Part shown: in pieces, positions 1-56,358 of the stretch
How positions within the stretch are numbered: the first letter of the stretch is position 1
How the letters are laid out: each line of letters starts with the position of its first letter
NCBI RefSeq assembly: GCF_001676705.1
Contig: NZ_CP016170.1
Location: 4,898,001-4,962,000 of the forward strand
Origin: Bordetella bronchialis
Lineage (GTDB): Bacteria > Pseudomonadota > Gammaproteobacteria > Burkholderiales > Burkholderiaceae_B
Reading direction: 5' to 3'
Length of the DNA: 64,000 nt
The notes under the pieces: model-generated
Told to the model about the DNA's origin: nothing
Seen by the model: only the letters and a program-made list of their open reading frames with translations
Database searches by the model: none
Translations under genes and position numbers: made by a program

Positions 1-270
1 ATCGTCGAGAACGTGCTGGTGTGCGGCATGCCGGCGCTGAACCAGTCTTCCGTCGTCATGCTGAGCAACGGCGACCAGGGCGGCACGGCCGGCGGCGGCG
101 TGGCCTGCGGCCAGATCATGGGCGAGGCCGCCTTCGTCACCGGCAGCCCCACCGTCATGGTGGGCGGGCCGCCCGGCGTGCGCCTGACCTGCATGACGAC
201 ACAGAATTCCAACAACACCATGGGCCTGGTGGCGGCGCCCAGCCAGACCGTGGTCCTGCTGCTAGGTTGA
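1..270 (+). CDS. DUF4150 PAAR-like T6SS spike-tip protein (5' end outside window)
   Basis: The frame is open from base 1, so the gene begins upstream; the last 89 codons are present. The visible part carries the Gly-rich pattern GTAGGGVACGQIMGEAAFVTG followed by SPTVMVGGPPGVRLTCMTTQN and NTMG, the same order of blocks as the complete DUF4150 protein at 28978-29361 (GGGVISQTFMGSSRYVTG, VLVMGTPIVRMTSLTVQN, NTVG). DUF4150 proteins are PAAR-like and are thought to cap the VgrG spike. It sits 11 bp upstream of tssJ in a T6SS operon that continues through tssM. Identification rests on this internal comparison and on context. Confidence 0.8.
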   Translation: MVENVLVCGMPALNQSSVVMLSNGDQGGTAGGGVACGQIMGEAAFVTGSPTVMVGGPPGVRLTCMTTQNSNNTMGLVAAPSQTVVLLLG

Positions 271-281
271 ACAGGCTCGCC

Positions 282-980
282 ATGACGCTTACCCGCACCC
301 TGAACCGCCTCGTGCCCGCCCTGCTGTGCGGCATCGCGCTGTCTTCTTGCAGCTCTTTGAACAGCATGATGGGCGGCAATTCCGAATCCGACGCGCTGAA
401 GGCCATGAAATGGACCTACGCCGGCGACGGCGTGCAGATCGCCGTGACGGCCGATCCCAGGCTGAACCAGTCCAACGGCCAGCCGCACACGCTGGCCATG
501 ACCGTCGTGCAGATGGAAGACCCCAGCGTCTTCGCGCCGTATGCCAGCAGCTCGTCCAAGATGTCGGCCCTGCTGCTGGCCGATGCGCCGCCGCCTGGCC
601 TGCTGGCGCTGAACCGCCTGTTCATCACGCCGAGCGAGAACCAGACCGTCACCCTGCCGCGCGTCGAAAAAGCGCAGTACGTGGGGCTGGTCACCGGCTA
701 CTACCATCTGGACCCGGCGCGCAGCGCGCGCCTGTACCAGGTCGGCGTGGAGGTCGATTCCAGCGGCATCGTGATCAAGACACGCAATGCGTCGCCGGAA
801 CCGCTCAAGATCGACCTGCGCCTGGGCCCCGACGGCATCGAGGAATCGCCCGGCACCCGCACGCCGCCCGTCGAACCGGTGCGGCCCAAGGGCGGCGAAG
901 TCTCGCCGCCGATCGCCAAGCCCGCGCAACCCGCATCCGGCATCGCGCCGCCCGCGCCCGCGACGGCGCCGTCCAAATAA
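282..980 (+). CDS. tssJ: TssJ outer-membrane lipoprotein of the first T6SS
   Basis: This 232-residue protein starts at ATG 282 with a lipoprotein signal (LCGIALSSC, lipidated Cys23) followed by a beta-rich domain typical of TssJ/SciN, including ALNRLFITPSENQTVTLPR and the YVGLVTGYYHLD segment that matches VGIVAGYRDLE in the second TssJ. TssJ is the outer-membrane anchor that holds the periplasmic part of TssM. After about residue 190 there is a Pro/Ala-rich tail (TPPVEPVRPKGGEVSPPI onward) of some 40 residues that the second TssJ (49504-50043) lacks. It lies directly before tssK, in the order tssJ-K-L-M. Confidence 0.88.
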   Translation: MTLTRTLNRLVPALLCGIALSSCSSLNSMMGGNSESDALKAMKWTYAGDGVQIAVTADPRLNQSNGQPHTLAMTVVQMEDPSVFAPYASSSSKMSALLLADAPPPGLLALNRLFITPSENQTVTLPRVEKAQYVGLVTGYYHLDPARSARLYQVGVEVDSSGIVIKTRNASPEPLKIDLRLGPDGIEESPGTRTPPVEPVRPKGGEVSPPIAKPAQPASGIAPPAPATAPSK

Positions 981-1000
981 CCCGAACCGCACACCCACCG

Positions 1001-2395
1001 ATGGCTACGTATCTGAAACAACCGCTGTACTGGCACCAGGGGCTTTTCCTGCAGCCCCATCATTTCCAGTACCAGGACGCCTGGACCGAGCGCATGCTGG
1101 CGCGGCAGGTGGAATTGACCATGCCCTGGTACTGGGGCTTCGGCGCGCTGGAAATCAACGAAACGGCGCTGGGCGCGCGCGAGGTGGTCATCGACCACAT
1201 GGCGCTGCGCTGGCGCGACGGCACGCTGACGGAAATCCCCGGCAACGCCCGCATCGAATCGCGCCGCTTCGAACTGGCGGACTTCTCCCAGGGCGCGCGC
1301 ACGCTATACGTGGGCCTGCGCCGGCACATCGAGGACCAGTCCAATGTGCTGAAGTACGAGAACCTGGACGATGCCGTGCAGGCGGACGCGCGGCTGGTGG
1401 TGCCGGCCGATCCGCAGGAGGTCCCCGACCGCTACACCAGCGGTCCGACCGGCCGGGTCACGCTGATGACCTATGTGCTGCGGCTGTTCTGGGAAGAGGA
1501 AATCAACGACCTCAGCGACTACGACGTCATGCCGGTCGCCCGGCTGGAACAGGACGGCGAGATCGTGCGCCTGGCGCCGCGCTTCGTGCCACCCTGCCTG
1601 AACCTGGCGGCGTCGCGGCCCCTGCAACTGATGATGATGGAGCTGCGCGACGAAGTCATCGGCCGCGCGCGCCAGCTGGAGGTCTTCAAGCAGCCGGTGG
1701 CCGGCCGCTCCGGCGAGGACGGCCAGTTCGCGCCGCTGCTGGCGCTGTCGGTGCTGAACCGCTACGGTCCGCAGATCACCCACCTGGTCGAAGCGCGCCA
1801 GACGCATCCGTGGACCATCTATGGCGTGCTGCGCCAGCTGGCCGGGGAACTCAGCACCTTCTCGGAATTCTGCGACCTGCTGGGCGAAACCCGCGACAAC
1901 CAGCAGCTGGTGCGGCCCTACAAGCACACCGACCTGGGCCCGTCCTTCATGGGCGTGCTGGACCTGATCCGCCGCCTGTTGAACGAAATCACTATCGGGC
2001 CGGAGATGCTGGTGCACTTCGAACAGGACGGCGCGACCGGCAACCTGTTCCGCGCGGACATGCCGCCATCCTTCTTCGGCCCGCGCCATCGCTACTACAT
2101 CATGGCCCGCAGCAGCCTGGATCCCAAGGCCCTGGCCGAGTCCGTCATGCTGGAAGCCAAGCTGGGCACGCCCGACCAGATCGAGACCCTGGTCACGCGC
2201 TCGCTGCCGGGCGTGGAGGTCATGCCCCTGCAGACACTGCCGCTGGGCATGCCGCGGCGCGCGGGCAGCGCCTACTTCCGCATCGAGAGCCTGTCGGAAG
2301 CGTGGGACGCCGTGGTGCACGACGGGCGGCTGTCGCTCTTCCTGCCCGACTCGCCCGCCGACCTGCGGCTGGAACTGATCGTCATCAAAGGATAG
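1001..2395 (+). CDS. tssK: TssK baseplate protein of the first T6SS
   Basis: The 464-residue product begins at ATG 1001 with the characteristic TssK opening YWHQGLFLQPHHFQYQDAW (the second copy at 50092 has WSEGMFLRPQHFQQFERYL). TssK is a trimeric cytoplasmic protein that links the TssEFG baseplate to the TssL/TssM membrane complex. Length is normal for the family (about 440-460). Sequence identity with the second TssK in the window looks low outside the N-terminal and C-terminal blocks, so the two loci are not a recent duplication. It is followed by tssL after only 4 bp. Confidence 0.92.
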   Translation: MATYLKQPLYWHQGLFLQPHHFQYQDAWTERMLARQVELTMPWYWGFGALEINETALGAREVVIDHMALRWRDGTLTEIPGNARIESRRFELADFSQGARTLYVGLRRHIEDQSNVLKYENLDDAVQADARLVVPADPQEVPDRYTSGPTGRVTLMTYVLRLFWEEEINDLSDYDVMPVARLEQDGEIVRLAPRFVPPCLNLAASRPLQLMMMELRDEVIGRARQLEVFKQPVAGRSGEDGQFAPLLALSVLNRYGPQITHLVEARQTHPWTIYGVLRQLAGELSTFSEFCDLLGETRDNQQLVRPYKHTDLGPSFMGVLDLIRRLLNEITIGPEMLVHFEQDGATGNLFRADMPPSFFGPRHRYYIMARSSLDPKALAESVMLEAKLGTPDQIETLVTRSLPGVEVMPLQTLPLGMPRRAGSAYFRIESLSEAWDAVVHDGRLSLFLPDSPADLRLELIVIKG

Positions 2396-2399
2396 AACC

Positions 2400-3077
2400 G
2401 TGCGGCTCAGCAATATCTGGGTTTCCTCCATGGAACAGGCCAGGGCCGCCATCAACGGCCCCACCGCCAATCAGGACGCGGCGGCGGTCGCCGAACAGCT
2501 GAAGGCCTCGCTGGACGCGGCGGTCGCGCGCGCGCAGTCCGGCGGCTATACCGCCGCCGAAGTGCAGGCCAGCCTGTTCGCGGTGGTGGCATGGATAGAC
2601 GAACTCGCCATGTCGCGGGAATGGGCGGGCGGCGCCACCTGGCGCCTGGCGCCCCTGCAGCGCCACTACTTTTCCACCACGCGGGCCGGCGCCGAATTCT
2701 TCGAGAAACTCGAAGCCCTGCCCGACCAGGCCATCGAAGTGCGCGAGGTCTACGGCCTGGCGCTGCTGGCGGGCTTCAGCGGGCGCTATACGCACCGCCC
2801 GCCCGGCGAGCTGGCCGCCTACCGGTCGGCGCTGCTGGCGCGCATCGCCGACGAGCGCCAGATGGCGCCGCTGGACCCGGACCTGCCGCTGTTTCCGCAG
2901 GCCGGCGGACGCCGCGCCCGCTCGCCGCAATACCGCCGCGGCCTGGCGCCTTCGCTGGTGACTTTCATTCTTATCGTGCTGCCGCTGTGCGCGCTGCTGG
3001 GCCTGTACCTGTACCTGGACTACGGCGTGGCCACCGACGCGGCCGGCTTTGTCGCTTCCGGCCGAACCGGCTCCTGA
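2400..3077 (+). CDS. tssL: TssL (DotU-type) inner-membrane protein, short form
   Basis: GTG at 2400 lies 4 bp after tssK; ATG 2430 (MEQARAAINGPT) is an alternative start. The 225-residue protein has the all-helical cytoplasmic DotU domain (AVVAWIDELAMSREWAGG; LAGFSGRYTH) and one C-terminal membrane segment at about residues 180-202 (SLVTFILIVLPLCALLGLYL), followed by only some 20 periplasmic residues. There is no OmpA-like peptidoglycan-binding domain, unlike the TssL at 51452. TssL pairs with TssM in the inner membrane. Peptidoglycan anchoring must come from another subunit; the TssM next door carries a SPOR domain. Confidence 0.88.
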   Translation: MRLSNIWVSSMEQARAAINGPTANQDAAAVAEQLKASLDAAVARAQSGGYTAAEVQASLFAVVAWIDELAMSREWAGGATWRLAPLQRHYFSTTRAGAEFFEKLEALPDQAIEVREVYGLALLAGFSGRYTHRPPGELAAYRSALLARIADERQMAPLDPDLPLFPQAGGRRARSPQYRRGLAPSLVTFILIVLPLCALLGLYLYLDYGVATDAAGFVASGRTGS

Positions 3078-3103: not shown

Positions 3104-6100
3104 ATGATCAAAAAACTGCTTGTCGTCATCGCCTGGTTGCTGGGCCTGCTGCTGCTGGCGCTGGGATGCTGGGTGCTGGGCCTGTACCAGGGCTGGCCGC
3201 TGTGGCGTTCCGTCGCGCTGTTCCTGGGCGTCATCGTCGGCCTCTGGCTGCTGTGGTGGCTGCGCGGCCGCTGGCTGGCCTGGCGGCTGCGGCGGCGGCT
3301 GGCCCGCCCCGTGGGCACCACCACCGTCAGCACCGCGCGGCTGGACGCCGATTGGCGCGCCGGCCTGGCGGCCCTGAAGCAGTCGCGGCTGTCGCGCTTC
3401 GGCTCGCCGCTGTACGTGCTGCCGTGGTACCTGATACTGGGCCCGCGCGACGCGGCCAAGGACGAACTGCTGCGCCGCGTGGCCGGCACCGCGCCCGTGC
3501 AGGGCCAGGGCGACGACCCGGCCGTGCTGCAATGGTGGCTGCTGCGCAATGGCGTCGTGCTCGATCCCACGGCCGAAATGCCCGACGAGCAACAGGCGCC
3601 CGACTCCCCGCAGTGGCGGCGCCTGCTGCACTGGATGATGCGCACCCGCCGGCGCGAGCCGCTGAACGGCCTGATCCTGGCCTTCAACGCGGTCTGGCTG
3701 GCCGACGGCACCGACGCCGAACTGAACGAGGCCGGCCAGGGCCTGCGCAAGCGACTGGACGAACTCACCCGCATCTACGACGCCCGCATCCCGGTCTACA
3801 TCGTGCTGACCGGCTGCCAGGCCATCCCCGGCTTTTCCGCCTGGGCCGCATCGCTGGGCCCCGACGTGACGCGCCACGCCATGGGCTACCAGAACGCCAC
3901 GCCCAACGCCAGCGTGACCCAGTTCATCAGCGATGCCTTCAACAGCATCGTGCATCGCATGTTCGACCTGCGCGTGCTGCAGGGCGTGCACGGCCTGCCC
4001 GCGGCGGACGCCTTCGCGCTGCCCGAACGCATGGCGCCCCTGGCCAAGCAATTGGCCAAGGTCCTGCGTTCGGCCTTCCAGCCCACGCCCTACGCCGAAA
4101 CGCCGCTGATGCGAGGGCTGTTCCTGACCGGCCAGGCGCCGGGCAGCGACCGCGGCCAGCCCGGCTGGTTCAGCCCCGGCCTTTTCCATAGCGCGCTGCC
4201 GGCCCAGCGGCACGCATGGCGTCCGGTCGAACGCTGGCGCATCTGGCGCCGCGTGCTGCGCCATGCCGTGGTCATCGCCTGGCTGGCCGCCTGCGTCGGC
4301 GTCGGCATCTTCCTGATCCATGCGGGCAACACCGCGCGCGAGGAGATCCGCGTCGCGGCCGCGCAAGGCTACGGCGACCCGGATTTCTCCGGCCCGATGT
4401 CGGGCGATCTGCACGCCTTGCAGGGCGAGCGCGCCGCCATCCACGCGCTGCGCGCCCGTCCCGCCTGGCAGCAGCGCTGGATGCCGTTCCAGTGGCGCGT
4501 CAATACGGTGGAACGCGCGCTGATGACCCGCTTCGTCGGCCAGTTCCACCGCGAGGTCATCGCCGCCGACCTGGATCCCCTGCTGATCAAGAGCCTGCCG
4601 CAACTGGCCAACGGCCAGAACGACACCCTGCTCGCGGCCTGGGCGCAGACCCTGGTGCGCCGCCTGAACCTGCTGGACGCGGCGCTCAAGGGCCAGGACG
4701 TGTACGCGTTGCCGGCGCCGGGCAGCGAACTGCCGGTGCTGCTGGCCAGCGCGCACCAGACCCTGGGCGATCCCATGGACGGCATCCTGCTGGGAGACAT
4801 GTATCGCGACTACCTGACCTGGCAAGGCAACCGGCAACTGCTGCAGGACGAATCGCGCGGCTTGCGCCAGGTGCTGGCCAGCCTGGGCCTGACGGACCGC
4901 ACGACGCGCTGGATCTACGCCTGGGTGGACATGCAGGGCAGCCTGAAGCCGGTGCGCATGACGGACTTCTGGGACATCCCCGATCGTCCCGGCCTGCCCA
5001 TCATTCCCGCCGCGCTGACGCCGGAGGGCGAGCGCGCCGCTTCCGGCTTCCTGGACGAACTGGGACGCGCCACCGGCGATACCGCCGAGTGGGCGGCGCG
5101 CCGCCGCGAATTCCAGCAGCACTACCAGAGCGCCGGCCTGGAAGCCTGGTTCGAGTTCGCCGACGTCTTCCCCCACGTGCCGGACCTGCTGCCCGACGGC
5201 GCCTCGCGCCGCGCGGTCATGTCCATCCTGCTGACCCGCAACGACCCCTATCTGCGCCTGATGCGCCAGCTGGCCGCGGTGGGCGACCGCCTGCCGCTGG
5301 GCACGCGTCCCGACTGGATCGTGCAGGCCTCCAAGCTGGACGCCTTGAACGGGCTGGCCTATGCCGATCCGGCGGCCGGCGCCTTGCAGGAAGTCGGCGT
5401 GGTGCAGCGTTTCGGCGGCGAGGTCATCAAGGCGCTGCCCCAGGGCGGCTCGCTGAACCAGGGCCTGAACCAGCTGAAGAACGACAGCGCCGCGCTGCAA
5501 CTGCTGCAGGCTTACCGCAAGGGCGTACGCGACACCATCACGCCGCTGCAGCAGGGCGACGGCACGGCGATGAAGGCCGCGGTGGAAATCTGGTCCTATG
5601 GCCACGATCCCAATGTGAAGAACGTGCCGCTGATCGATGCGAAGACGGCCCTGGATACCCTGCACAAGCAGCAGGGCGCATTGGGCACCCGCACCCATGT
5701 GGTGTGGGATATCGCCGGGGGCCCGCTGGACTTCGTGCTGGACTACGCGGCGCGCAGTGCCGGCTGCCGCCTGCAGCAGCAATGGGAGAACACGGTGCTC
5801 AGCGCGGTCCAGGGCGTGAGCGATGCGGAGCTGGCCAACCAGTTGCTGTATGGCGAACGCGGCCAGGTCAAGGCCTTCATGGACGGCGACGTCAAGTACT
5901 TCGTGGACCAGGATGCCGTGCGCTTCCAGGCCCGCGCGGCCGACGACAAGAAGGTGCCCCTCAACGGACAGTTCTTCGCCTTCGCCAGCATGACGCAACT
6001 GCGCCAGGTGGCGCTGGCGACGCAGCAGCTGCAATCGAAGCGCTCGGCCGACGAGGCGCAGGCGTTGACGCAGCAGCAGGCGGAACTGGAAAAGCAGATC

Positions 6101-7033
6101 GCCAAGCTGCAGGCGACGACCGGCACGGTGACGCTGAACACCGTGCCGCCGCAGACCAACCCGACCGCGCAGGTGCTGCCGCTCAGCGTGACGCTGAGCC
6201 TGCAATGCGCCAGCGGCACGCTCACGCTGGAAAACCTCAACTTCCCGAACAGCGGCGTCTTCCCGTGGTCCATGCAGACCTGCGGCGACACGACCCTGCG
6301 CATCCACTACGCGAACTTCGACCTGACGCGGCAGTGGACGGGCGCGCAGGGTTTCGTGGACTTCCTGCGCGAGTTCGCCAGCGGACAGCGGCGCTATACG
6401 CCCGCCGACTTCCCCGACCAAAGGGACGATATGACGCGGGCCGGCATCCAGTACCTGGTGGTGACCTATCGCCAGCAGGGCCAGGCGCCGCTGGTGGGCG
6501 CGTTCTCGCAGGCCGCGACGCTGGGCTCGCAGATGGAAGGCATCAAGGCGCGCCTGGCGCTGCTGCAGCCGGGCACGGCGCCGGGCTCGACCATGCCGCC
6601 GCCGGCGTCGGCGCCCAGCGTGCCGCAACGCATCGTCGCCTACTGCATGGGGCCGGTGAACGACATCGGGCCCGATCTTGCGCCGCCGCCGCCCCCCGTC
6701 ATCCCCGTGCCCACGGCGCCGCCGCGCACCGCGACGCCCGCGCCGGCGCCGCATCCGCGGCGTAGCGCGCCGCCGCCGCCTGCGCCCAAGCCGGCGGCCG
6801 CCAGCGGCCCCTACGCCGTGCAGGTGGGGATCTTCGCCCACCCGGAGTCGGTGCTGGATGCCTTGAAGAAGAACGGCTATGCGGTGCAGGATTCGGCCAT
6901 CACCATCAAGGGCGAGGCCTACCGGCAGATACGCGCGGTGGGCTACGCCAACCGCGATGCCGCCGACAGCGCGGCGGAGAAGATCGGCGGCCTGCTGCGG
7001 CTCAAGCCGGTGGTGATCAGCCTGGACGAATAG
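3104..7033 (+). CDS. tssM: Atypical TssM (IcmF-like) lacking NTPase motifs, with C-terminal SPOR domain
   Basis: This 1309-residue protein has two N-terminal membrane segments (about 4-28 and 35-54), a third at about 388-408, and a large periplasmic part, as in TssM. The cytoplasmic domain aligns by landmarks with the canonical TssM at 52732, but the nucleotide motifs are gone: LPWYLILGPRDAAKDELL (107-124) replaces LPWYVIIGAPGAGKTTAL, VVLDPTAEM (151-159) replaces LLDTAGRY, and VLTGCQAI (234-241) replaces VTKTDLL. The IcmF-type core ends near residue 1190. A Pro/Ala-rich linker (PPPPPVIPVPTAPPRTATP) then leads to a SPOR domain at 1235-1309 (GPYAVQVGIFAHPESVLDAL, then YRQIRAVGYANRDAAD). SPOR domains bind denuded peptidoglycan. 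The frame is intact, so this is a diverged rather than a broken gene. It is the last gene of its operon. Confidence 0.9.
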   Translation: MIKKLLVVIAWLLGLLLLALGCWVLGLYQGWPLWRSVALFLGVIVGLWLLWWLRGRWLAWRLRRRLARPVGTTTVSTARLDADWRAGLAALKQSRLSRFGSPLYVLPWYLILGPRDAAKDELLRRVAGTAPVQGQGDDPAVLQWWLLRNGVVLDPTAEMPDEQQAPDSPQWRRLLHWMMRTRRREPLNGLILAFNAVWLADGTDAELNEAGQGLRKRLDELTRIYDARIPVYIVLTGCQAIPGFSAWAASLGPDVTRHAMGYQNATPNASVTQFISDAFNSIVHRMFDLRVLQGVHGLPAADAFALPERMAPLAKQLAKVLRSAFQPTPYAETPLMRGLFLTGQAPGSDRGQPGWFSPGLFHSALPAQRHAWRPVERWRIWRRVLRHAVVIAWLAACVGVGIFLIHAGNTAREEIRVAAAQGYGDPDFSGPMSGDLHALQGERAAIHALRARPAWQQRWMPFQWRVNTVERALMTRFVGQFHREVIAADLDPLLIKSLPQLANGQNDTLLAAWAQTLVRRLNLLDAALKGQDVYALPAPGSELPVLLASAHQTLGDPMDGILLGDMYRDYLTWQGNRQLLQDESRGLRQVLASLGLTDRTTRWIYAWVDMQGSLKPVRMTDFWDIPDRPGLPIIPAALTPEGERAASGFLDELGRATGDTAEWAARRREFQQHYQSAGLEAWFEFADVFPHVPDLLPDGASRRAVMSILLTRNDPYLRLMRQLAAVGDRLPLGTRPDWIVQASKLDALNGLAYADPAAGALQEVGVVQRFGGEVIKALPQGGSLNQGLNQLKNDSAALQLLQAYRKGVRDTITPLQQGDGTAMKAAVEIWSYGHDPNVKNVPLIDAKTALDTLHKQQGALGTRTHVVWDIAGGPLDFVLDYAARSAGCRLQQQWENTVLSAVQGVSDAELANQLLYGERGQVKAFMDGDVKYFVDQDAVRFQARAADDKKVPLNGQFFAFASMTQLRQVALATQQLQSKRSADEAQALTQQQAELEKQIAKLQATTGTVTLNTVPPQTNPTAQVLPLSVTLSLQCASGTLTLENLNFPNSGVFPWSMQTCGDTTLRIHYANFDLTRQWTGAQGFVDFLREFASGQRRYTPADFPDQRDDMTRAGIQYLVVTYRQQGQAPLVGAFSQAATLGSQMEGIKARLALLQPGTAPGSTMPPPASAPSVPQRIVAYCMGPVNDIGPDLAPPPPPVIPVPTAPPRTATPAPAPHPRRSAPPPPAPKPAAASGPYAVQVGIFAHPESVLDALKKNGYAVQDSAITIKGEAYRQIRAVGYANRDAADSAAEKIGGLLRLKPVVISLDE

Positions 7034-7096: not shown

Positions 7097-8056
7097 CTAG
7101 GCGCGGTCCGCCCGCGCCGAATAGCCCAGGGTCTCCGCCATGGGCAGCCGGTAGTCGGCCTCGGTCAGCTGGCGCCGCAGCCCGGCCGCCTGCTCGTCGG
7201 CCAGCTCCACCAGCGGCGGCCGCACGATGCGCCAGGCGTCGTCGCCGGACTGCCAGGCCACGGCTTCCTTCATCGCGGAGATCATGGGCAGGGCCTGGAA
7301 GATGCCGCGGACCTGGCGGATGCGCTCATGCCAGGCGTCGGCCTGCGGCGTCTGCCAGTTGCGATAAAGGTGCATGATCTCCGCGGCGTTGACGTTGGCC
7401 GTGGCGGTGATGCATCCCACCGCGCCGGCGCGCAGGCCGGGCAGCAGGAAGACCTCGCTGCCGGGAAACACGTCGAAGCCGTCGGCGGCGAATTCGCGCA
7501 CCATCGCCGCCGTGTTGTCCCAATCGCCGGAGCTGTCCTTGGCGCCCGCCACCTGCTTGGGATAGGCCTTGAGCAGGCGTTCGATCAGGCGCAGCGTGAT
7601 GGGCACGCCGCTGACCGGGGGGATGTGGTACAGGTACACGCGCAGCCGGTCGTCGCCCACGCCCTCGATCAGGTTGGCGTAGGCGCGGAACAGGCCCTCG
7701 TCGCTGACGCCCTTGTAGTAGAACGGCGGCAGCACCAGCACGCCGGCGCAGCCCGCCTGCACGGCGTGGCGGGTCAGCTCCACGGCGTCGGGAACGGCGC
7801 AGGCGCCCGTGCCGGGCATCATGCGGTCCGGCGGCAGCCCGGCCGCCAGCAGGGCATCCAGCAGCCCGCGCTTTTCCGCGACCGACATCGATGCCGCTTC
7901 CGAGTTGGTGCCGAAGACGGCCAATCCCACGCCCTGCTCGACCAGGCCGCGGCAATGCCGCACCAGGCCGTCGGCGCTGGGCGTGCGATCCAGGTTGAAC
8001 GGCGTCAGGACGGGCGAGAGCACGCCGCGCAGGCGGTGGTCGTGGGGATGGGACAT
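7097..8056 (-). CDS. DapA-family lyase (dihydrodipicolinate synthase superfamily), probable keto-deoxy sugar-acid enzyme
   Basis: The start is ATG 8056, 6 bp after a GGAGGAG ribosome site; the open frame extends further upstream without support. The 319-residue TIM barrel has the superfamily residues: GTNSEAAS (from residue 49, in place of GTxGE), Tyr143 in VYLYHIPPVSG, and the Schiff-base Lys173 in VAGAKDSSGD. True DapA is usually about 290 residues and lies elsewhere. Here the gene sits beside a LysR regulator, an IlvD/Edd-family dehydratase and a Bug receptor, which suggests cleavage or dehydration of a 2-keto-3-deoxy sugar acid produced by that dehydratase. The substrate cannot be read from sequence. 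Confidence 0.85.
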   Translation of the reverse strand: MSHPHDHRLRGVLSPVLTPFNLDRTPSADGLVRHCRGLVEQGVGLAVFGTNSEAASMSVAEKRGLLDALLAAGLPPDRMMPGTGACAVPDAVELTRHAVQAGCAGVLVLPPFYYKGVSDEGLFRAYANLIEGVGDDRLRVYLYHIPPVSGVPITLRLIERLLKAYPKQVAGAKDSSGDWDNTAAMVREFAADGFDVFPGSEVFLLPGLRAGAVGCITATANVNAAEIMHLYRNWQTPQADAWHERIRQVRGIFQALPMISAMKEAVAWQSGDDAWRIVRPPLVELADEQAAGLRRQLTEADYRLPMAETLGYSARADRA

Positions 8057-8308
8057 GGAAGCTCCTCCAGGCGGACCGGTCGCCAGCGCGGCGCCGGTGC
8101 AGTGACGTTCGTATGGGTTCCCGGCGCGGGGTTTCGGCCGCCGGCCGGGGTGGCGCGTCCCGGGCAAGGCCGGGCCGGCGCCATAGGGGCAAAGTAGCAG
8201 TGTGGGCCGGCGGAGAACAAGAAAAAAGCGGCTTCCGTTACTATCACACCGCAATAATTTTCAGGAGTCGCCCGGCGGCCGCCCGGGACGCCCGCCACGC
8301 CGACCGCC
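8057..8308. promoter_or_regulatory. Divergent promoter region between the DapA-family gene and the LysR gene
   Basis: This 252-bp region separates oppositely transcribed genes, the usual place for a LysR-type operator. The only AT-rich stretch (about 8234-8265) contains TTACTATCACACCGCAATAA, which offers T-N11-A spacing compatible with LysR binding. The rest is GC-rich with no other recognisable site. Confidence 0.4.
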
Positions 8309-51451: not shown

Positions 51452-52735
51452 ATGCATGCATCGGACAGCGCCCTGCCGCCGCTGGGCGGCTTCGGCGACG
51501 CGGACGCGACGGCCACCAGCCGCCTGCGTCCGCACGAGTACGTCATCAGCGGGTCCAATCCGCTGGTGGCGGCGGCCAATCCCCTGCTGGACCTGATTCC
51601 GCAGATCCGCGCCACCGCCAGCCATCCTTCGCCGGCGCTGCTGCGCGAACACCTGCTGGATGAAGTGCGGCAATTCGAACTGCGCGCGCAACAGGCCGGG
51701 ATTCCGAACGAAACCATCCTGGGCGCGCGCTACTGCCTGTGCACCGCGCTGGACGAGGCCGCCGCGCTGACGCCCTGGGGCGGCAACGGCGTATGGTCCG
51801 CGCACAGCCTGCTGGTGACCTTCCACAACGAAACCTGGGGCGGCGAGAAGTTCTTCCAGCTGCTGAGCCGGCTGTCCCAGAATCCCAGCCAGCACCTGGA
51901 CCTGCTGGAGCTGCTCTATTACTGCCTGCTGCTGGGCTTCGAGGGCCGCTACCGCGTGATCGACAACGGCCGCTCGCAGCTGGAAACGCTGCGCCAGCGC
52001 CTGCTGCGCATCCTGCGCGCGGCGCGCGGCGAGGTCGCGCGCGAGCTCTCGCCGCACTGGCGCGACGCGCCCGCCCAGGCCCAGTTGCGCCGCCTGCCCG
52101 TGCCCCTGTGGGCCTATGGCGCGCTGGCGGCCGCGCTGGCCCTGCTGCTTTACCTGCTGCTGGGCTGGCGCCTGGGCGGGCAATCGGACCAGGTGTTCGC
52201 CGCCATCAACGCGCTGAAGGCGCCCACCGTGCAGATCGCCGCGCCGCCTCGCCCGCGCCCCGCGCCGGCCCCGCGGCTGGCGGTATTCCTGGCGCCGGAG
52301 ATCCGCGACGGCCTGGTCACCGTGCAGGACCAGGTCGACCGCAGCGTGGTGGTGCTGCGCGGCGACGGCGCCTTCGAATCGGGCGCGGCCGAGGTGCGCG
52401 GGCCTTATATGACCGTGCTCTCGCGGGTGGCCGACGCGCTGCGCGAGACCCAGGGCGTGATCCTGGTGCGCGGCTACACCGACAATGTGCCGATGCGCAG
52501 CGCGCGCTATCCGTCCAACTGGCATTTGTCGCAGGCGCGCGCCGACACGGTCAAGGCCATCCTGGAACAGCGCCTGGGCCAGCCCGGCCGCGTGCGCGCC
52601 GAAGGCCGCGGCGACGCCGATCCCATGGCGCCCAACGACACGCCCGCCGGCCGCGCGCTGAACCGCCGCGTGGAGATCACGCTGATGATTCCGCCCGTGC
52701 CGCGCGAAACCACGCTGGAGGGCGCGCAGCCATGA
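51452..52735 (+). CDS. tssL: TssL with OmpA-like peptidoglycan-binding domain
   Basis: The 427-residue protein has a DotU domain (SNPLVAAANPLLDLIPQIRA, CTALDEAAALTPWG, LLYYCLLLGFEGRYRV), one membrane segment (VPLWAYGALAAALALLLYLL, about 218-238), and a periplasmic OmpA-like domain (about 290-420; LRETQGVILVRGYTDNVPMR, NWHLSQARADTVKAIL, GRGDADPMAPN, GRALNRRVEITL). The OmpA domain anchors the membrane complex to peptidoglycan. Its stop overlaps tssM by ATGA. Confidence 0.95.
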   Translation: MHASDSALPPLGGFGDADATATSRLRPHEYVISGSNPLVAAANPLLDLIPQIRATASHPSPALLREHLLDEVRQFELRAQQAGIPNETILGARYCLCTALDEAAALTPWGGNGVWSAHSLLVTFHNETWGGEKFFQLLSRLSQNPSQHLDLLELLYYCLLLGFEGRYRVIDNGRSQLETLRQRLLRILRAARGEVARELSPHWRDAPAQAQLRRLPVPLWAYGALAAALALLLYLLLGWRLGGQSDQVFAAINALKAPTVQIAAPPRPRPAPAPRLAVFLAPEIRDGLVTVQDQVDRSVVVLRGDGAFESGAAEVRGPYMTVLSRVADALRETQGVILVRGYTDNVPMRSARYPSNWHLSQARADTVKAILEQRLGQPGRVRAEGRGDADPMAPNDTPAGRALNRRVEITLMIPPVPRETTLEGAQP

Positions 52736-55700
52736 TCGCCTCGCTGTTCTATCGCTTCTTCGGTTTCCTGTTCAGCCGGGGCCTGTGGAACTTCCTGGGC
52801 ATCGTGGCGCTGTCCATCCTGGTATGGATCGTCGGGCCGCTGCTGGCCATCGGCGCCACCCGCCCCCTGGAAAGCGAAACGGTGCGCATCGCCGTCATCG
52901 CCGCGCTGTTCGGCATCTGGCTGCTGCGGCTGCTCTGGCGCAAATGGCGCGAGGGCCGGCTCAACGCCCAATTGCTGGGGCAGATCCGCAAGCCGGCCAA
53001 GGAAGCGCCTGCGGCCCGGCCGGTGGACAACGGCCAGATGCGCCAGCTGGAGGAACGCTTCGACGAAGCCGTCGAGCTGCTGCGCAAGACCCGCTTCCAG
53101 GAAGGGGGCCGCTTCAGCCTGCACCGGTATTCCAAACAGTATCTTTACCAGCTGCCCTGGTACGTCATCATCGGCGCGCCCGGCGCCGGCAAGACCACCG
53201 CGCTGGTGAACTCCGGCCTGAACTTCCCCCTGGCCGACCGCTTCGGCAAGGTGGCGCTACGCGGGGTGGGCGGCACGCGCAACTGCGACTGGTGGTTTAC
53301 CGACGACGCCGTGCTGCTGGACACCGCGGGCCGCTACACCACGCATGAAAGCGATCCCACGGGCGACGAGGACGAATGGAAGGGCTTCCTGGGCCTGCTG
53401 TCCCGGTACCGCGGCCGCCAGCCCATCAACGGCGCCATGCTGACCATCAGCGTGGAAGACCTGCTGGGCGCATCCGACTCCGAGCGCGCCCAGCACGCCG
53501 CGGTGCTGCGCCGCCGCCTGCAGGAGCTGCGCGAGCAGCTGGGCATCCAGTTCCCGGTGTATGTCCTGGTCACCAAGACCGACCTGCTGTCCGGCTTCGA
53601 GGAATACTTTGCTTCCTTCAGCCGCGATGACCTGTCGCAGGTCTGGGGCTTTACCCTGCCCTATGCCCGCACGCAGGAACCGGACTTCGACCTGTACGAA
53701 GCCTTCCATGCCGAATACCGCCTGCTCCAGCGGCGGCTGGACGACGCCCTGCCGGAAGTGCTGGCCGCGGAAACCGACGCCGCGCGGCGGGCGCTGGCGT
53801 ATATGCTGCCGCAGCAGTTCGCCGGCCTGCAGGCGGTGCTGGGCCACTTCCTGAGCGATGTCTTCGCCAGCTCCAAGTACGAGGCGCGACTGCTCCCGCG
53901 CGGGGTGTATTTCACCAGCGGCACGCAGGGCGGCGCGGCCACCTTCGACCAGGTCACCGGCCACCTGAAGCGCTATCTGCGCATCGATACCGGCGGCACT
54001 GCGGCCGAACCGCCCGCCGAGGGCGAGGGGCGCAGCTATTTCCTGAAGAACCTGCTGCAGGATGTGATCTTCCGCGAGGCGGGGCTGGCCGGCCGCAACC
54101 TGCGCTGGGAACGCCGCTACCGGCGCCTGCACTGGACCGGCTATGGCGTCATCACGGCGCTGTTCCTGGCCCTGGTGGCGGGCTGGGCGCTCAGCTACCG
54201 CAACAATGCCGCCTATGTACAGGAAGTGGCCCGCCGCGTGCCCACGGTGGACAAGCTGGGACGCGAGCTGAAGATCACGCAGGCCGGCGACGTACTGGGC
54301 CTGATGCCTTTCCTGGACAGCCTGTGGTACCTGCCGCGCGATGCCGATTTCGAGGTGGACGCGCCGCCGCTGGACTACACCTTCGGCCTGTACCAGGGCC
54401 GCAAAATGGCGTCCGCGGCGCTGGGCGTCTACCGCGGCACGCTGGAACAGACCCTGTTGCCGCAGGTGGCGCGCCGCGTCGAGACCGCCCTGCGCAAGGC
54501 CCCCGCGGACGACCTGGAGTTCTCTTACGAGGCGCTGCGCGCCTACCTGATGCTGTACGAGGCCGACCGCTACGACGCCGAGTTCATGCACGCCTGGCTG
54601 CTGTCCGACATGCAGAAGACGCTGCCGGAGGGCTACACGCGGCGCCAGTACGACCAGCTCTCCCTGCACCTGCGCAACCTGGTGCGCGACCGCGTGCTGT
54701 CCTCGCCCTTTCCGCGGGACGACCAGCTGGTGCGCGCCGCGCGCGAGCGCCTGGCGCGCTATACGCTCGCGCAGCGCGCCTACAGCCGCCTGCGGCGCAT
54801 GCTGGCCAACGGCGAGGACGCACCCGACAACACCGCCGTGACGCTGGGCGGGCCGGCGGCCACATCGGTCTTCGTACGCAAAAGCGGCAAGCCGCTGACC
54901 GACGGCATTCCGGCGCTGTACAGCTATCGCGGCTACTGGGACGTTTTCAATAAACGCGTGGACCGCGTCGCCGAGGTCCTGCGCGGCGACGACGCCTGGG
55001 TGCTGGACATTCCGCCGCCCGGCCTGCTGGACGAGGCCGCGCGGCGCCAGCTGATCGTCGACATCAAGCGCCTGTACCTGAACGACTACGTCGCACGCTG
55101 GGATGCCTACCTGAACGACCTGCAGCTGGCGCCCAGTACCTCGCTGCTGGCCAATATCCAGATGGCGCGCACGCTGTCGGCGCCCGATTCGCCGCTGGCG
55201 CAGCTGGTGCGCGGCGTGGCCCGCGAGACCACCCTGCTGCGCGACGCCGGCGGCGACGCGCGCTCGCTGATGGACCAGGCCCGCGACCGCGTCAGCAGCA
55301 CGCGCGACGCGCTGGAGCAGATGTTCGGCCCGACCGGCCCGGGCGCCGCCACCCGCGCGGACGCCAGCGACGACAAGCTGGAATTGATCGTCGACAAGCA
55401 TTTCGAACCCTATCGCCGCCTGACCCAGGGCGCGGGCGCCGGCAGCCCGCCCCCCATCGCGGCCACCACGGGCCTGATCGACGAGCTCTATACCTACCTG
55501 ACCGCGGCCGACGCGGCGTTGCGCAGCGCCAGTCCGGCGCCGGGGTCGGACGTGGTGACCAAGCTGCAGGCCGAGGCCGGCCGCATGCCCGAACCGGTGC
55601 GCGATCTGCTCAACACACTGTCGGTGAACGCCTCCGGCCAGGTGTCGGGCGTCGCGCGCGAGCGCATGGGCGAAACCGTCGCGGCCACCATCGGCCTGTT

Positions 55701-56358
55701 CTGCCGGCAATCCATCGCCGGCCGCTATCCCTTCGCGCCGCAATCCAATCGCGATGTCGCGCCCAACGACATGGCGCGCCTGTTCGCGCCCAACGGCATG
55801 ATGGACGACTTCTTCCAGAAAAACCTGGTCAGCCAGATCGACGTGTCGGGGCCGCGCTGGCGCTTCAAGCCCGGCATAGACGGCAAGCCGGCGCCGCCTT
55901 CCGGCTACCTGGATGCCTTCCAGAAGGCCGGCATCATCCGCGATGTCTATTTCACGGCGGGCAACCCCATGCCGTCCTATCGCGTGTCCATCCGGCCACT
56001 GGAAATGGACGCCGGCATCACCCAGTTCCTGATGGACGTGGACGGCCAGGCCATCCGCTATGCCCACGGCCCCCAGGTGGCCGCGACCGTGCAGTGGCCC
56101 GGCCCGCGCGGCTCCAACCAGGTCAGCATCGAACTCACGCCCCAGGTCGGCACCGCCGGCATGAGCACGTCCGGGCCGTGGGCCCTGAACCGCATGCTGG
56201 ACAAGGCCGCGCTGGCGCCGGGCACATCGCCGGAAACCACCGTGGCGACTTTCGACTTCGGCGGCCGCAAGGTGGTGCTGGAGATCACGGCGAGCAGCGT
56301 GAAGAGTCCATTCCGCCTGGCCGAGATGCAGGGCTATGCATGCCCTGGGCGCGGCTGA
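52732..56358 (+). CDS. tssM: TssM (IcmF) with intact Walker A
   Basis: The 1208-residue inner-membrane protein has two N-terminal membrane segments (about 18-42 and 52-70), an NTPase-like domain with Walker A GAPGAGKT (148-155), LLDTAGRY and VTKTDLL motifs, a third membrane segment near residues 470-490 (GYGVITALFLALVAGWALSY), and a periplasmic domain ending in the DUF1215 type VI C-terminal block (EITASSVKSPFRLAEMQGYA). It spans the envelope from TssL to TssJ. It has no SPOR or other peptidoglycan-binding tail, unlike the TssM at 3104. Confidence 0.96.
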   Translation: MIASLFYRFFGFLFSRGLWNFLGIVALSILVWIVGPLLAIGATRPLESETVRIAVIAALFGIWLLRLLWRKWREGRLNAQLLGQIRKPAKEAPAARPVDNGQMRQLEERFDEAVELLRKTRFQEGGRFSLHRYSKQYLYQLPWYVIIGAPGAGKTTALVNSGLNFPLADRFGKVALRGVGGTRNCDWWFTDDAVLLDTAGRYTTHESDPTGDEDEWKGFLGLLSRYRGRQPINGAMLTISVEDLLGASDSERAQHAAVLRRRLQELREQLGIQFPVYVLVTKTDLLSGFEEYFASFSRDDLSQVWGFTLPYARTQEPDFDLYEAFHAEYRLLQRRLDDALPEVLAAETDAARRALAYMLPQQFAGLQAVLGHFLSDVFASSKYEARLLPRGVYFTSGTQGGAATFDQVTGHLKRYLRIDTGGTAAEPPAEGEGRSYFLKNLLQDVIFREAGLAGRNLRWERRYRRLHWTGYGVITALFLALVAGWALSYRNNAAYVQEVARRVPTVDKLGRELKITQAGDVLGLMPFLDSLWYLPRDADFEVDAPPLDYTFGLYQGRKMASAALGVYRGTLEQTLLPQVARRVETALRKAPADDLEFSYEALRAYLMLYEADRYDAEFMHAWLLSDMQKTLPEGYTRRQYDQLSLHLRNLVRDRVLSSPFPRDDQLVRAARERLARYTLAQRAYSRLRRMLANGEDAPDNTAVTLGGPAATSVFVRKSGKPLTDGIPALYSYRGYWDVFNKRVDRVAEVLRGDDAWVLDIPPPGLLDEAARRQLIVDIKRLYLNDYVARWDAYLNDLQLAPSTSLLANIQMARTLSAPDSPLAQLVRGVARETTLLRDAGGDARSLMDQARDRVSSTRDALEQMFGPTGPGAATRADASDDKLELIVDKHFEPYRRLTQGAGAGSPPPIAATTGLIDELYTYLTAADAALRSASPAPGSDVVTKLQAEAGRMPEPVRDLLNTLSVNASGQVSGVARERMGETVAATIGLFCRQSIAGRYPFAPQSNRDVAPNDMARLFAPNGMMDDFFQKNLVSQIDVSGPRWRFKPGIDGKPAPPSGYLDAFQKAGIIRDVYFTAGNPMPSYRVSIRPLEMDAGITQFLMDVDGQAIRYAHGPQVAATVQWPGPRGSNQVSIELTPQVGTAGMSTSGPWALNRMLDKAALAPGTSPETTVATFDFGGRKVVLEITASSVKSPFRLAEMQGYACPGRG

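Follow-up and report, generated by a model that had tools for sequence, protein, structure and literature searches.

A SPOR domain at the C-terminus of a divergent TssM in a type VI secretion locus of Bordetella bronchialis

The window, i.e., the whole 64,000-nucleotide stretch of DNA analysed here, begins within a PAAR-like gene followed by the type VI secretion system (T6SS) genes tssJ, tssK, tssL, and tssM, and it also holds tssL and tssM of a second T6SS locus. The features are as follows:

1-270, plus strand: PAAR-like gene whose 5' part lies outside the window (PF13665 Tox-PAAR-like, E 1.7e-19, profile positions 36-108)
282-980, plus strand: TssJ lipoprotein with lipobox LSSC and a Pro-rich C-terminal tail (PF12790 T6SS-SciN, E 5.6e-11; start and lipobox from sequence)
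1001-2395, plus strand: TssK (PF05936, E 2.7e-100)
2400-3077, plus strand: TssL, short form of 225 aa without a C-terminal domain (PF09850 DotU, E 4.6e-36)
3104-7033, plus strand: TssM, divergent, 1309 aa (PF14331, E 5.1e-40)
6647-6805, plus strand: Pro-rich linker of TssM, residues 1182-1234 (read from sequence)
6806-7030, plus strand: SPOR domain of TssM, residues 1235-1309 (Pfam, predicted fold, PDB matches)
51452-52735, plus strand: TssL of the second locus with OmpA, for comparison (PF09850 and PF00691, E 5.3e-16; TIGR03350)
51739-56358, plus strand: canonical TssM of the second locus, for comparison (PF14331, PF06761, PF06744; TIGR03348, 1302.9 bits)

The window TssM contains the IcmF-related N-terminal domain PF14331 (137.9 bits, cut-off 25). 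It scores 146.6 bits with the TIGR03348 equivalog, under the 388-bit cut-off, which we read as a divergent TssM branch outside the curated equivalog and not as another protein. In the canonical TssM of the second locus, TIGR03348 spans residues 350-1537 of the open frame, and this protein has no SPOR match. A Foldseek search with the periplasmic core of the window TssM gave no match at E ≤ 0.001. The first five rows of a second-look alignment of the core were the TssM structures 6ixh, 6hs7, 4y7m, 4y7l, and 4y7o, none of which came from the first Foldseek pass, and the window TssM has the periplasmic TssM fold with a C-terminal C2-like domain. The core is kept to C1181, the tail begins behind this residue, and the outgroup rows P0051-P0057 end at most 7 residues from there. 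PF00691 is absent from the window TssM.

The tail consists of a linker with a Pro content of 40% and of residues 1235-1309 (GPYAVQVGIFAHPES...). An earlier note on this DNA had described a SPOR domain behind a Pro-rich linker at the end of TssM and given its span as 6656-7033, which takes in most of the linker as well as the SPOR domain, the latter starting at about 6806. The SPOR assignment is borne out by Pfam, the predicted fold, and PDB matches. The PF05036 search that the note had proposed matches residues 1233-1305 of the whole protein at 19.5 bits, just below the gathering score of 21, and the isolated 125-aa tail at 25.4 bits (E 1.8e-5), above it; whole TssM proteins of the relatives L041 and L054 also exceed this score. 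SPOR matches at E ≤ 0.01 were found in 34 of 35 family tails, these being the rows of alignment A3, which holds 35 out of 45 tails and omits near-copies and one further Pseudomonas-type tail (P0037). A family profile of 13 tails with 24-62% identity to the window tail scores the latter at 100.7 bits versus 8.7 bits for the best of 2000 shuffles, which shows family membership, the SPOR identity resting on Pfam and fold.

Modelled with AlphaFold2 (mean pLDDT 86), the tail shows the element order E-H-E-E-H-E, i.e., an RNP-like beta-alpha-beta-beta-alpha-beta fold including the beta-alpha-beta SPOR pattern the earlier note had expected, and its top PDB matches are the DedD and RlpA SPOR domains. 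Another SPOR-like PDB match is 6ozd. Searching PDB sequences with a profile of the 35 tails gave nothing significant (best E 0.1), and only the fold comparison was clear. A chance match or composition artefact was ruled out by the 34 of 35 family tails, the PDB fold matches, and the shuffle test, and a frameshift or single-assembly fusion artefact by the occurrence of the tail in an uninterrupted frame across many genomes. The SPOR domain is more conserved than the linker in seven of eight comparisons, the exception being L005, whereas the periplasmic core is more conserved than SPOR in seven of eight; against Pollutimonas the values are 62% for SPOR, 26% for the linker, and 48% for the core.

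Glycan-contact residues of the RlpA SPOR domain, namely Q270, F274, R302, R309, and R311 (PMC6895207), were transferred via an RlpA relative matching 6i05 (E 2e-32). The window tail retains Q270 (Q1240), F274 (F1244), and R311 (R1277) and has the aromatic Y1273 at RlpA position 307, while it differs at R302 (I1268) and R309 (Q1275) and so keeps one of the three arginines. In RlpA, binding survived single arginine changes, and changing all three removed much of it (PMC6895207). The Q270 and F274 equivalents are invariant in all 32 A3 tails outside the Pseudomonas branch, and these same rows have Arg at R311 (n = 23), R309 (n = 11), and R302 (n = 4). The Gln is absent from the remaining three A3 rows, all from the Pseudomonas branch, and is replaced by His in the SPOR tail L045. 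The Pseudomonas TssM tails (L008-L012, L016, L019, and L020) are SPOR-like with neither the Pro linker nor the conserved Gln, and their ligand may have changed.

In Pfam, the window TssL (2400-3077) has DotU alone, with no peptidoglycan-binding domain, SPOR, or OmpA, and the TssL at 51452 carries OmpA, both as the earlier note had stated. Its suggestion that the anchor appears to have moved from TssL to TssM is not supported by the relatives. TssL is short in all 20 homologous loci (open frames of 218-250 aa), including four with a tail-less TssM, and tail-less TssM rows lie just outside the SPOR clade. Short TssLs were also present in 12 of 12 further loci (224-262 aa stop to stop), and a search with the window TssL returned 80 homologues, all of 192-257 aa and with DotU only, among candidates of up to about 394 aa, a range in which a TssL-OmpA of usual size would not have appeared. 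The short TssL is a lineage trait in the loci read, whether or not TssM carries SPOR.

The cluster order common to ten upstream regions is tssA, B, C, hcp, E, F, G, H, and vgrG, followed by DUF2169, pentapeptide, DUF3540, PAAR, tssJ, K, L, and M, with some genes uncalled in some loci by ORF choice and Pfam run on representatives only. No separate TagL/OmpA gene was found in the homologous clusters examined; the window itself starts within the PAAR gene, so that the upstream genes of its own cluster lie beyond its edge. The OmpA matches listed for 20 genomes all lie outside the homologous clusters, and a one-sequence OmpA profile run over 30 loci (618 kb, ten of them upstream stretches) found only the window's second TssL. 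No OmpA, wall-hydrolase, or division gene was present among the scanned genes (TssG and TssK excluded) of Bordetella sp. BOR01, the nearest full locus. Away from the homologous clusters, these genomes do contain short TssLs with OmpA partners; for example, G011 has a 574-aa OmpA frame beside a 299-aa DotU, and in G020 an 846-aa OmpA frame and a 244-aa DotU are separated by about 7 kb. Such pairs resemble what is seen with TagL and TagP.

At the protein level, 205 relatives of TssM were obtained, 120 of which were listed, and a scan of genome contigs gave the 20 homologous loci. The family profile detects the tail in 16 of these, and Pfam SPOR is over the cut-off in 14 of the 20 TssM frames. 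The four tail-less TssMs belong to P. syringae GR12-2 (L007), Comamonas (L014), P. antarctica (L015), and Pandoraea (L017). Three of nine genomes in the BOR01 genus have a full-length TssM relative, each with SPOR, and a relative was found in one of 198 Pseudomonadaceae genomes, the query's own (at most three candidates scored per genome). Within the genus of Caballeronia mineralivorans, 11 of 58 genomes have a relative, one with SPOR and ten tail-less as judged by sequence reading without a Pfam scan. Since four of the 20 loci and ten of these 11 relatives are tail-less, the wall module is dispensable in the lineage. By eye, the TssM relatives L060-L064 and L069-L073 have no recognisable C-terminal wall-binding domain. 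At least two relatives (P0020 and P0203) are publicly annotated as "SPOR domain-containing protein". A plasmid origin was rejected, as there was no near match in plasmids and, by protein, one Caballeronia record at 27%.

A different domain occupies the same place in part of the BOR01 family. A survey of 101 genomes from this family (relatives at E ≤ 1e-100, at most six candidates scored per genome) gave 14 TssM relatives, and all their C-termini were read: seven have SPOR and seven a LysM-like domain after a Pro-rich linker. The LysM tails (L046-L052) form a separate TssM clade. PF01476 matches the whole TssM of L046 and L050 as well as each of the six scanned LysM tails, the latter with E values from 5e-13 to 6e-17, the seventh, L047, being near-identical to L046. 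Three LysM loci are of the same operon type, with DUF2169, pentapeptide, PAAR, TssJ, K, and L, and the one-sequence profile found no OmpA in the LysM loci. Two of the three have a minus-strand ORF between PAAR and tssJ (L057, 12238-13044; L058, 11937-12899 after reversal), for which Pfam gave no match. In an order-level survey with a LysM-type TssM as query, the sole match among 100 genomes was the SPOR-type TssM that the centre genome itself encodes. LysM is, to our knowledge, not specific for denuded glycan.

TssM trees were built from 81 of 95 rows and from 77 of 107 rows. In the 77-row tree, in which His at the Gln position was scored as SPOR state Q, the seven LysM rows form one clade (SH-aLRT 100) that adjoins two tail-less rows and stands apart from the SPOR clade. 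A single clade of SPOR and LysM rows, a group named after the tree had been seen, was rejected (p-AU 5.5e-62). The rows directly outside the SPOR clade have no tail in the 81-row tree. The minimum number of tail changes is six in the 81-row tree and seven in the 77-row tree, although both trees were built quickly under a single model and have flagged long branches, so that the numbers of gains and losses are unsure. P0032 (1208 aa, 52% identity), which by identity falls inside the SPOR clade and has no SPOR tail, was dropped from both trees and would, if included, add one more loss. The trees are consistent with SPOR having been gained on TssM and lost several times, and with a divergence of the Pseudomonas tails in which the key Gln for glycan contact disappeared. 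Such a gain fits better than a transfer from TssL because the short TssL also occurs in tail-less loci and the outgroup rows are tail-less.

Fused T6SS anchors are already known, namely TssL-OmpA, TagL, TagP, and TssL-SPOR. The specialised long TssL-OmpA, of which the window's second T6SS has one, likewise joins a wall-binding domain to a core membrane-complex protein, but it bears OmpA on TssL, whereas the window locus has SPOR on TssM and a bare TssL. TagL, a separate OmpA-domain protein recruited by TssL and counted among the accessory anchors (PMC8253398), likewise supplies wall binding where TssL has none, but the homologous clusters that were examined yielded no TagL. TagP derives from TssM and carries pfam00691 in its C-terminal periplasmic part (PMC5363822), where this domain replaces the C-terminal domain of TssM (PMC10433429). 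The window TssM resembles it in being TssM-like with a C-terminal wall-binding domain, but TagP is an accessory derivative and the window TssM keeps the core to C1181 with SPOR behind it. Fourteen DotU proteins fused to SPOR were reported by Broms et al. in 2012 (PMC3326028); these also place SPOR in a T6SS membrane-complex protein, but on TssL, and none was seen among the TssLs of this lineage (20 loci; 80 homologues of up to about 394 aa). The SPOR domains of RlpA, DedD, DamX, and CwlC have the same fold as the window tail, which shares part of the RlpA contacts, but these are division or wall-enzyme proteins, unlike the secretion-system protein TssM. No fusion of TssM with SPOR or LysM was found in the available parts of the open-licence T6SS literature, including PMC13375697, PMC10433429, PMC3326028, PMC5285517, and PMC10210955.

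These observations make it probable that the SPOR domain is a wall-binding module tethered to an otherwise complete TssM, where it grips the glycan as an anchor, and that the TssM C-terminus serves as a module port. The Pro-rich, presumably flexible tether would join the peptidoglycan-binding SPOR domain to the end of a complete TssM. As TssM crosses the periplasm and its C-terminal domain meets TssJ (PMC10433429, a review), the tether would hold SPOR close to the outer membrane within the periplasm, probably where the membrane complex passes through the wall. There, SPOR would most likely grip glycan strands and do the anchoring job that OmpA performs on TssL or TagL in other T6SSs. We infer periplasmic exposure, glycan binding, and anchoring. 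Two unrelated wall-binding domains at the same TssM end on separate branches point to wall contact at this site, and relatives holding LysM or nothing there would make the TssM C-terminus a port for wall-binding modules.

SPOR could instead be a targeting device that binds amidase-generated denuded glycan and guides the T6SS to assemble at septa or wherever else the wall is being split. The earlier note had suggested targeting of this kind, which we consider quite improbable. Q1240, F1244, R1277, and the aromatic Y1273 do occupy glycan-contact positions, and a 2019 paper, in which denuded-glycan binding was demonstrated, describes all known SPOR proteins as acting in division or morphogenesis (PMC6895207); here, the domain is found on a core weapon component. 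However, Ile and Gln replace the R302 and R309 equivalents, the Gln is lost in the Pseudomonas tails, and a division gene is absent among the scanned genes of the BOR01 locus. Moreover, a separate clade has LysM in the corresponding place, which suggests that general wall contact, rather than septal specificity, is kept or selected. A related idea, that the TssM C-terminus is an exchange site whose module determines where the T6SS is assembled, with SPOR reading amidase-processed, denuded glycan and so linking assembly with wall under division or remodelling, and LysM reading general glycan and so permitting it anywhere, seems to us unlikely.

A tentative possibility, which overlaps with the preferred anchor since wall binding is common to both, is an assembly checkpoint in place of a permanent anchor. 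TssM would recruit a housekeeping lytic transglycosylase or amidase, and SPOR would hold TssM in the cut hole by binding the glycan that this enzyme produces. At the assembly site in EAEC, the wall is cut by MltE, which the C-terminal domain of TssM stimulates and which TssJLM assembly requires (PMC10433429), and the stimulation would also agree with the preferred anchor; RlpA SPOR crystals were also obtained with a 1,6-anhydro ligand (PMC6895207). The scanned genes of the homologous operon, on the other hand, include no wall hydrolase. Finally, the tail might be a decaying or neutral appendage, or an RNP-type fold for protein-protein interaction without glycan binding. The several losses (at least six and seven tail changes on the two trees), the Pseudomonas divergence, and a conservation below that of the core in seven of eight comparisons would agree with this, but SPOR is better kept than the linker equally often, the Gln and Phe contacts do not vary in the 32 tails outside the Pseudomonas branch, and another branch has placed LysM at the site, which leaves such an appendage rather unlikely compared with a tethered wall anchor.

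Some further observations concern the genes around tssM. The Pro-rich end of TssJ (282-980) closely resembles the TssM linker. In the window, a DHDPS-family gene on the minus strand (7097-8254) converges on tssM and is probably unrelated to the T6SS. In Pseudomonas, tssM is directly followed by a Pfam-scanned hybrid sensor kinase in L008 (13939-17094) and by a LuxR-type response regulator in L009 (17069-17764), and clustering places a sensor kinase behind tssM in eight of ten Pseudomonas loci. Upstream of tssA, a divergent BTAD/AAA/TPR regulator of about 1200 aa is present in four of ten upstream regions (L021, L022, L027, and L030), two of which were run through Pfam.
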